Origin: Acidimicrobiia bacterium
GTDB lineage: Bacteria; Actinomycetota; Acidimicrobiia; Acidimicrobiales; Poriferisodalaceae
Reading direction: 5' to 3'
Length of the DNA stretch: 64,000 nucleotides
NCBI GenBank assembly: GCA_022826045.1
Contig: JAJDVQ010000038.1
Location: 1-64,000, forward strand
The position numbers and the translations under genes are program-made. Below are positions 35,345-62,294 of the stretch, in pieces (positions within the stretch are counted from its first letter, which is position 1; each line of letters starts with the position of its first letter). The notes under the pieces are model-generated. The model searched no databases. It was not told the DNA's origin and was given only the letters and a program-made list of their open reading frames with translations.

Positions 35345-35376
35345 AGACCCCCGCCCAGCGAGCCGAGCGGGGGTCT
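35345..35376 (+). terminator. Perfect 10-bp GC-rich hairpin
   Basis: AGACCCCCGC (35345-35354) pairs with GCGGGGGTCT (35367-35376) around a 12-base loop. It lies between the divergent GH2-like gene and the tRNA-like elements. The following bases are not a T tract, so it may be an intrinsic terminator of a short upstream RNA or a structural part of the leader. Confidence 0.5.
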
Positions 35377-35408
35377 TCGAGGAGCGGAGCTGTGTGGGCT
35401 TCGTTCCA

Positions 35409-35479
35409 GGGAGCAGCCAGGTGGCCGGGAGGGCCTCTAAATCCATTCCCGAGGGGTTCGAGTCCCCTTGCTTCCACCA
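35409..35479 (+). ncRNA. tRNA-like element 1
   Basis: A 71-base unit. Acceptor stem GGGAGCA (35409-35415) pairs over seven positions with TGCTTCC (35469-35475), followed by A and an encoded CCA. A D-arm-like GCC-AGGT-GGC follows the acceptor. The T arm is canonical: AGGGG, loop TTCGAGT, CCCCT. In place of a normal anticodon arm there is CGGGA, one G, GG, a nine-base loop CCTCTAAAT, CC, AT, TCCCG. An ordinary seven-base anticodon loop cannot be drawn, so this is not a standard tRNA. Could be a pseudo-tRNA, an attachment-site duplicate or a functional tRNA mimic. Confidence 0.6.
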
Positions 35480-35501
35480 GTCACGCTATGCGGGACGAAT
35501 T

Positions 35502-35566
35502 GGAGGCGCAACCGGGACGGTCTCTAAATCCACTCCCGAGGGGTACGAACCCCTGCGCCTCCACCG
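35502..35566 (+). ncRNA. tRNA-like element 2
   Basis: A 65-base relative of element 1, 22 bases downstream. Acceptor GGAGGCGC (35502-35509) pairs perfectly with GCGCCTCC (35555-35562), followed by A-CC-G instead of A-CC-A. The middle arm has the same plan: CGGGA, one C, GG, loop TCTCTAAAT, CC, AC, TCCCG. The T arm is AGGGG/CCCCT with a six-base loop TACGAA. There is no D arm. The acceptor sequence differs from element 1 but remains fully paired, which argues for selected structure. The sequence after both units is also shared (gtcacgcta). Confidence 0.58.
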
Positions 35567-35618
35567 GTCACGCTACGCGCGGGGAACTCACTGCGCAACC
35601 AGCCTGCGCGGAATCGAA

Positions 35619-35639
35619 GCGGGCGGGTAGGTTGCCCGC
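35619..35639 (+). promoter_or_regulatory. Hairpin touching the start codon of the ATPase gene
   Basis: GCGGGC (35619-35624) pairs with GCCCGC (35634-35639); the loop gggtaggtt contains the only AGG that could act as a ribosome site, and the ATG follows at 35641. Such a stem could limit initiation. Confidence 0.4.
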
Positions 35640-35640
35640 C

Positions 35641-62190: not shown

Positions 62191-62222
62191 CACCCCGCCG
62201 CCGAGCCCGCCGCCGACCTGTG

Positions 62223-62294
62223 AGCCCGAGGTGGGGATTGAACCCACGACCTGCTCTTTACGAGAGAGCCGCTCTGCCACTGAGCTACTCGGGC
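62223..62294 (-). tRNA. tRNA-Thr(CGT)
   Basis: A full 72-base cloverleaf on the minus strand: acceptor GCCCGAG/CTCGGGC, D arm GCTC-AGTGGCA-GAGC, anticodon arm GCTCT-CTCGTAA-AGAGC (anticodon CGT), T arm GTGGG-TTCAATC-CCCAC, discriminator T. CCA is not encoded. It reads ACG codons. Confidence 0.95.

Follow-up and report, generated by a model that had tools for sequence, protein, structure and literature searches.

The nearest described kind of RNA to the elements reported here is that of the allo-tRNAs. In the relevant parts of PMC7609411, these are presented as non-canonical tRNAs with an acceptor/T arm of 8/4 or 9/3 bp and with non-cognate and very diverse anticodons, some of which carry G3:U70, the major identity element of alanyl-tRNA synthetase (AlaRS), and insert alanine, and some of which are suspected of links with transposons or toxin-antitoxin systems; the hosts named in these parts are Clostridia, Proteobacteria, and Acidobacteria. 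Neither the 8/4 or 9/3 arm nor the long variable arm of the allo-tRNAs is present in the units analyzed in this study, which occur in Acidimicrobiia and differ in their 7/5 arrangement, lack of a variable arm, stems without linkers, adjoining hairpins, and conserved predicted antisense promoter.

Several other systems resemble the units in part. The tRNA-like domain of tmRNA (RF00023) has alanine identity in common with them, and a D and an F unit (subfamilies are given below) match tmRNA ends weakly, with 36.1 and 32.3 bits at a cut-off of 47, but the units have no mRNA-like domain and no tag reading frame, and those scanned stay below the Rfam cut-off. A substitute for tmRNA was rejected, as tmRNA over the cut-off was found in 10 of 11 genomes of the genus; the exception is the source assembly, where its absence is probably an assembly gap, and a search with a poorly chosen alpha-tmRNA model found nothing. 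Bacterial tRNA-Sec (RF01852) shares the UGGU tetraloop of the D arm, and in two genomes a subfamily B unit is flanked by selA and selB. However, the B units have neither a UCA anticodon nor a long variable arm, one of them (L148) reaches 26.5 bits where the cut-off is 47, and the source genome has a separate tRNA-Sec (67 bits). A further likeness concerns tRNA-Pyl, which has a CTCTAAA anticodon loop, as in a unit of the window (the whole stretch of 64,000 nucleotides analyzed), together with a small D loop and close stems, whereas the loop is not conserved among the units, which carry G3:U70. A tRNA-Pyl/amber system was rejected after a PylS search of the 90.8% complete source genome, in which no PylRS exceeded the cut-off and the two matches below it were LysRS and ThrRS by eye.

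In addition, RNA I and RNA II of ColE1 form a convergent sense/antisense pair with three arms in the fold, whereas the units are chromosomal, have no known replication origin beside them, and carry AlaRS identity bases. The mistranslating tRNA-Pro hybrids of Streptomyces are reportedly non-canonical actinobacterial tRNAs of changed identity; the units differ from them in pointing to alanine and not proline, in their non-canonical fold, and in the lack of a second full AlaRS. A literature search found no such RNA family described.

The cloverleaf units and their fold

The source assembly (genome G000), an Acidimicrobiia metagenome-assembled genome, comprises 3.64 Mb in 104 contigs, of which the window is contig C98. 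An earlier note on this DNA had described two tandem tRNA-like units with a common middle arm and hairpins 5' of them, and both their positions and the stems returned by folding agree with that description (Table 1). A pattern of the middle arm and T arm, with up to two mismatches allowed, matched only these two units in the window (expected 0.00). Unit 1 folds at -30.8 kcal/mol with a z-score of -1.0, so that by itself it is not unusually stable, and unit 2 at -35.1 kcal/mol with a z-score of -4.3. The operon 3' of the units encodes an AAA/MoxR-like ATPase followed by a protein whose VWA match is below the cut-off, and the sole call by ARAGORN or Rfam in the window is a tRNA-Thr at 62222-62294.

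Table 1. Features of the locus in window coordinates; promoters and the role of hairpin 1 are predictions
Feature	Position	Strand	Remarks
Hairpin 1	35345..35376	-	14 facing positions: 12 Watson-Crick, two A-C on + (G-U on -); loop 4 nt
Hairpin 2	35381..35407		Stem 10 bp, loop 7 nt; ends one base 5' of unit 1
Unit 1, alanine-tRNA-like cloverleaf	35409..35479	+	Folding, homologues
Unit 1 acceptor stem	35409-35415/35469-35475	+	Pair G3:U70 = 35411/35473
Unit 1 D arm	35416-35425	+	Loop AGGT
Unit 1 middle arm	35426-35451	+	
Unit 1 middle-arm loop CTCTAAA	35435..35441	+	Orthologues at 34-36: CTA, GTA or GAA
Unit 1 T arm	35452-35468	+	
Unit 1 ACCA end	35476-35479	+	
Predicted antisense promoter 3' of unit 1	35483..35511	-	-10 TAGCGT 35483-35488; -35 TTGCGC 35506-35511; spacer 17
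Unit 2, tandem derivative	35502..35566	+	Acceptor 8 bp with A3:U70, no D arm, T loop altered
Predicted antisense promoter 3' of unit 2	35570..35598	-	-10 TAGCGT 35570-35575; -35 TTGCGC 35593-35598; spacer 17

The two acceptor stems had been said to pair perfectly. Both stems are real, but pair 3 of unit 1 is G-U and not Watson-Crick, and it turned out to be the most informative pair. The claim that no normal anticodon loop can form needs a similar amendment, for a 7-nt loop with a U33-like T is present in unit 1; its middle arm is still not a normal anticodon arm, because 31:39 is mismatched and the stem below is broken. The lack of a D arm in unit 2 was confirmed, and with this loss and its altered T loop the unit could be a decaying tandem copy. 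The -35 element of the predicted antisense promoter of unit 1 sits in the acceptor stem of unit 2 (window 35502-35511), so unit 2 may have been retained partly as promoter DNA.

In the family described below, the + strand forms a 7-bp acceptor stem, a D arm of 3-5 bp whose loop is mostly an (A/T)GGT tetraloop (but 3 nt long in subfamily F and 6 nt in four units of H), a 4-5-bp middle arm with a bulged or mismatched upper continuation, and a 5-bp T arm with a loop that usually reads TTCGANT, followed by ACC in most units. The stems abut without linkers, the variable loop is absent, and the middle arm is interrupted or, in B and C, ends in a large terminal loop. A 7/5 acceptor/T arm with a TTC loop is found in the unit 1 type and not in unit 2, while a 5-bp anticodon stem with a 7-nt loop, a variable loop of at least 4 nt, and linkers 8-9 and 26 were not found. 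The bases at the place of an anticodon vary between related species.

Compensatory change between the acceptors had been taken as a mark of selection, which the wider family supports; among the orthologues of unit 1 alone the case is thin, with covariation in one of 22 pairs and 62 of 500 shuffles as good. In alignment A10 (16 rows, MAFFT, structure not used for fitting), pairing is kept in 99.7% of cells and both sides change at 13 of 20 pairs; none of 500 shuffles was as high on four measures, and 10 of 500 were on the fifth. Alignment A7, with 21 rows fitted to the model, gave 13 of 22 pairs, and energy folding alone returned the cloverleaf in 14 of 21 H units.

Family members and gene contexts

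The units belong to a family of four-way-junction RNA elements with at least 58 units, at least 52 of them distinct, in at least three families of one order. The distinct units in the counts number 8 in subfamily A, 7 in B, 5 in C, 3 in D, 4 in E, 6 in F, and 19 in H, and five copies of unit 2, all with A3:U70, were excluded from the totals of 58 and 52. Seven named records matching the unit pattern are MAGs labelled Acidimicrobiia, Acidimicrobiales, Acidimicrobiaceae, or Microthrixaceae. Within the genus, the window locus is present in 8 of the 11 genomes examined, and unit 2 in five of those eight; the relatives keep the locus ahead of an identical start-of-gene sequence. No unit scored over 36 bits in G009, a 95% complete genome of the same genus, which suggests that the family is dispensable and patchy even at this level.

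By running a model of unit 1 (R1, 8 rows) on 397 genomes of the order, at least seven homologues, each of exactly 71 nt, were identified in at least six genomes of another family (g45/f36) at 51-61 bits, with hairpin, hairpin, and cloverleaf in the same order as in the window and a different sequence. Weaker R1 matches of 75-77 nt were ordinary tRNA-Cys in all seven cases checked. With model R2, the 11 genus genomes yielded 22 additional loci at more than 36 bits, including two in the source genome (G000:C18:33548 and G000:C71:4380). A third model (R3), built from subfamilies B, C, and E and run on the same 397 genomes, matched in g45 and in two f46 genomes, from which 20 places with 21 units were fetched (41-63 bits). 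These scores overlap those of canonical tRNA-Ala (41-45 bits), and all 11 of the 77-nt matches checked were tRNA-Ala by ARAGORN; units were accepted from matches of 72-76 nt without a tRNA-Ala call (ARAGORN found none in 20 of 20 loci), L202 (76 nt, the same as the L231 unit) being uncalled. Among 396 genomes of a phylum sample, R3 at 1e-7 had no match beyond the source genome, in a search with stricter filters and a sample that included members of the order, so that weak or unsampled members may be missed. A phage or plasmid origin was dropped after searches of viral contigs (three patterns), plasmids (subfamily B), and phages (window) returned no matches.

ARAGORN called one of the 58 units, the F copy of G388, as tRNA-Trp, and no unit exceeded any Rfam cut-off among the window units and the eight paralogues scanned; with the Rfam tRNA model the window units are below the cut-off, and the unit on G000:C71 reaches 17.3 bits against a cut-off of 29. 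The replacement of a missing tRNA was also rejected. In the source genome, 44 RF00005 matches exceed the cut-off and stand for 19 amino acids, Ile being absent, and since a tRNA-Ile(GAU) pattern was found with zero mismatches in 10 of 11 genus genomes, the source genome excepted, the gap is probably one of assembly.

The gene contexts are diverse (names were assigned by eye unless a family id is given). Subfamily A stands ahead of a moxR-like gene. Subfamily B in the source genome lies between selA (TIGR00474, 387 bits) and selB (TIGR00475, 297 bits), with the unit (G000:C18:33548-33619; L148; L170 3549-3620) exactly between the two; selA/selB recur in G001 (by eye), and the place is different in G010 (three of the seven B loci were read). 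The real tRNA-Sec is at G000:C18:20975, 12.6 kb from this B unit. Subfamily C in the source genome is 3' of an SDR-like gene and 5' of an ABC substrate-binding gene; an ABC-type gene is also found in G003, G004, and G006, and the gene following the G001 unit is on the other strand. Judging from an antisense frame shared with the source genome, the C unit of G010:C24 probably sits where selA ends. Subfamily D lies 71 nt 3' of gyrA in G010, and a frame without an assigned identity ends at an equal distance in G003. Three of the four E loci are between TPP-enzyme-like and leuS-like genes, both on the other strand, and the fourth differs. Subfamily F lies approximately 95 nt 3' of a PAC2-like gene in G256 and G418. 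In G185, the F-unit copies at L115 and L116 are preceded by the apparent last codons of a PAC2-like gene, one copy being near a transposase-like gene, and the arrangement looks like a duplication of the gene end plus unit. A tandem pair of units with a gap of 8 nt is present on G293:C13 (L215, 301-373 and 382-454).

Identity bases and predicted minus-strand signals

Pair 3:70 is G-U in all 58 units (52 of 52 distinct), a count biased in its favour by the training of the search models on such units, and position 73 is A in 52 of 52. Exceptions to G3:U70 can be found, as in the A3:U70 of unit 2. Among the distinct units, pair 1 is G-C in 51 of 52 and pair 2 in all; pair 4 is GC in 37, CG in 9, AU in 5, and UA in 1, pairs 5-7 are variable as well, and pairs 4-7 covary across the family. 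The T loop is canonical, its count being likewise biased by the search models and orthologous units not being independent, and a GG is found in the small D loop of most copies. CCA is encoded in 18 of 52 units, including all of B and C. A73 counts as part of AlaRS identity, and with this base and G3:U70 in 52 of 52 distinct units the earlier suggestion of tRNA mimics holds up and, as far as sequence goes, may be sharpened to alanine-tRNA mimics.

The 25 genomes searched, 17 of them carriers and 8 controls, each have exactly one AlaRS over the cut-off, which makes a special charging enzyme unnecessary for the carriers; a special synthetase was accordingly rejected, no second full AlaRS being found. 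A second, weak AlaRS match, AlaX-like by length, occurs in carriers from the window's own family, in non-carriers, and in none of the nine g45/f46 carriers.

On the minus strand, an exact TTGCGC-17-TAGCGT occurs twice in the window, once behind each unit (expected 0.00). Of the 52 distinct units, 48 are followed at 2-5 nt by a predicted minus-strand -10 element (A...TA on the + strand, TANNNT on the minus strand; A 8/8, B 6/7, C 5/5, D 3/3, E 4/4, F 6/6, H 16/19), compared with a mean of 3.0 and a maximum of 11 of 52 in 2000 rounds of letter shuffles. Half of the distinct units, 26 of 52, have the complete TTGNNN-17/18-TANNNT (all of A and C, B 6/7, H 7/19, and none in D, E, and F), compared with a mean of 0.09 and a maximum of 2 of 52 in as many rounds. 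The canonical tRNAs of the source genome showed the -10 in 0 of 29 cases and the full promoter in 0 of 29. The -10 is absent from the f46 units L225 and L227, and in the G293 tandem pair it is found at the distal unit only, as expected if the pair forms one minus-strand transcript. From the usual spacing, the predicted antisense start would be approximately opposite position 73/74. Upstream of the units, a + strand TTGNNN-TANNNT (spacer 16-18) was found in just 5 of 52 (four g45 units and L163), implying that the + strand RNA may depend on read-through.

In subfamilies B and C (L148-L162), a stretch 40-80 nt 5' of the unit, upstream of the hairpin, is conserved and in many copies contains an inverted repeat CAGAA...TTCTG, possibly an operator or a + strand promoter. 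A 10-bp inverted repeat, CTCAGTATAT...GTATGCTGAG, is similarly placed at the g45 unit L223.

Hairpin 1, which fits the minus strand better, is a candidate terminator of the predicted antisense transcript, without a U tract; no clear U tract was seen at the hairpins of the family, of which one or two stand immediately 5' of the cloverleaf, so that their role as terminators is one we infer. Strand-neutral scoring of 41 distinct hairpins gave 59 A-C on the + strand (G-U on the minus strand) versus 17 G-U on the + strand, in fixed stems and with many orthologous rows, so that the events are not independent; the split is 31 versus 1 in A, B, C, E, and F together, 3 versus 5 in D, and 25 versus 11 in H. 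Without three H rows in which the finder picked the wrong hairpin (one of L215, L225, and L227; 5 A-C and 6 G-U), the count is 54 versus 11. Hairpins as + strand structures were dropped on the full counts. Both G-U pairs of hairpin 2 are on the + strand, contrary to the antisense reading of hairpin 1. On the minus strand, the hairpin loop reads UUCG in all 6 distinct hairpins of B, 3 of 4 in C, 2 of 2 in D, and 1 of 3 in E. No hairpin abutting a canonical tRNA was seen by eye in 29 upstream regions, but folding energies of whole regions overlap. The window locus folds better on the + strand (z -4.1 versus -1.8 on the minus strand), and nine other loci fold about equally on both.

Alternative readings of the locus

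On the evidence of sequence, we tentatively favour, at somewhat less than even confidence, the reading that the locus is a member of a dispersed sense/antisense RNA gene family, in which an antisense gene would overlap an alanine-tRNA mimic. The case for an antisense transcript is made by the minus-strand signals, and that for a + strand RNA recognized by AlaRS by the invariant G3:U70, A73, and T loop, whose neighbours are free; this reading is adopted since no single-strand account was seen to cover both.

The main rival, which appears rather unlikely, is that the minus strand alone is used, in the form of a small cloverleaf RNA that has a promoter and a terminator of its own and would serve as an anti-tRNA sponge or regulator, its loops being complementary to invariant parts of tRNA (the T loop, the GG of the D loop, and U70-C71-C72-A73). 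The promoter, the orientation of the hairpins, and the wobble bias all point there, and the cloverleaf stems read on the + strand have 10 A-C cells versus 4 G-U cells (the misregistered row L150 contributes one A-C and two G-U), an excess that favours a minus-strand RNA alone. However, pair 3 would then be mismatched as A-C in every one of the 52 units while pairs 4-7 vary. In addition, the A and C acceptors of the source genome match none of the three tRNA-Ala acceptors read, so pairing with tRNA-Ala does not explain the retention of just the AlaRS identity bases.

It is improbable that the units are programmed mistranslating or suppressor tRNAs that place alanine at non-alanine codons (UAG in the case of unit 1). 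AlaRS does not need the anticodon, and a 7-nt loop with a U33-like T is seen by eye in several subfamilies, both of which would suit such a function. Allo-tRNAs with G3:U70 also gave mainly Ala and Ser at UAG in vivo, according to the relevant part of PMC7609411. On the other hand, the anticodon-like bases differ between orthologues at one locus (CUA, GUA, and GAA for unit 1), the arm is interrupted or, in B and C, large-looped, and the variable loop and linkers are absent.

A non-decoding alanine donor for cell-wall, lipid, or peptide chemistry, with no antisense regulation, seems very unlikely. Alanine identity combined with the loss of a normal decoding arm would be in keeping with it, and a peptide ligase using Ala-tRNA, described in the relevant part of PMC12550832, offers a precedent, but no partner gene common to the units was seen in the contexts read, and the antisense promoter would be left unexplained.

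The earlier idea of a leader RNA regulating the ATPase/VWA pair was not borne out, and it is highly improbable that the units act in cis as a leader or processing element for the operon downstream (MoxR/VWA in the window, selB or an ABC transporter elsewhere). A same-strand gene begins within approximately 260 nt of the unit start in the window and at several paralogous loci (B L170 and L184; C L171, L180, L182, and L186; E L175), whereas in L178, L179, L183, and three of the four E loci (L174, L176, and L177) the gene predicted next runs on the opposite strand. A leader of one operon is not supported, because paralogues of like build have unrelated neighbours, and in some cases the gene that follows them is encoded on the other strand.

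Decayed tRNA genes or mobile-element debris are hardly credible. Such an origin is suggested by the damaged state of unit 2, by a transposase-like gene close to one g45 copy, and by two copies of a single genome that repeat a PAC2-like gene end. Against it, the stems covary, the identity bases are invariant, the window locus is retained before the same gene start in relatives, and the viral-contig, plasmid, and phage searches were empty. This reading is already contradicted for the family, for which the decayed class II tRNAs offered as an alternative in the earlier note are not supported.

Under the preferred sense/antisense reading, a minus-strand promoter would give a short antisense RNA that starts approximately opposite position 73/74, crosses the complement of the cloverleaf, and ends at the terminator-like hairpin. 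The + strand RNA, which is probably no normal decoding tRNA, would arise by read-through from the gene upstream or start at a promoter of its own, be processed in a tRNA-like manner, and be charged with alanine by the single ordinary AlaRS, and the antisense RNA would sequester or silence it. The likely purpose would be to keep an alanyl-tRNA mimic under antisense control, perhaps as a non-ribosomal alanine donor, a decoy for AlaRS or EF-Tu, or a conditional mistranslator. With distinct reserve, we also consider it possible that this is a new regulatory locus, in which an alanine-chargeable mimic is overlapped end to end by its own antisense gene, with several paralogues per genome and a toxin-antitoxin-like or switch-like control of alanyl-tRNA use or mistranslation.

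If real, the units would be RNAs of tRNA identity that are missed by ARAGORN and Rfam in at least three families of one actinobacterial order and that bear signs of selection on both strands. The prediction at the level of base pairs, with G3:U70 kept and its neighbours free, makes charging simple to test, and the units allow direct tests of whether cells keep alanyl-tRNA mimics for non-decoding uses and whether dedicated antisense genes can control tRNA-like RNAs. If the antisense gene is confirmed, the units would be a kind of their own among non-canonical tRNA-like RNAs.
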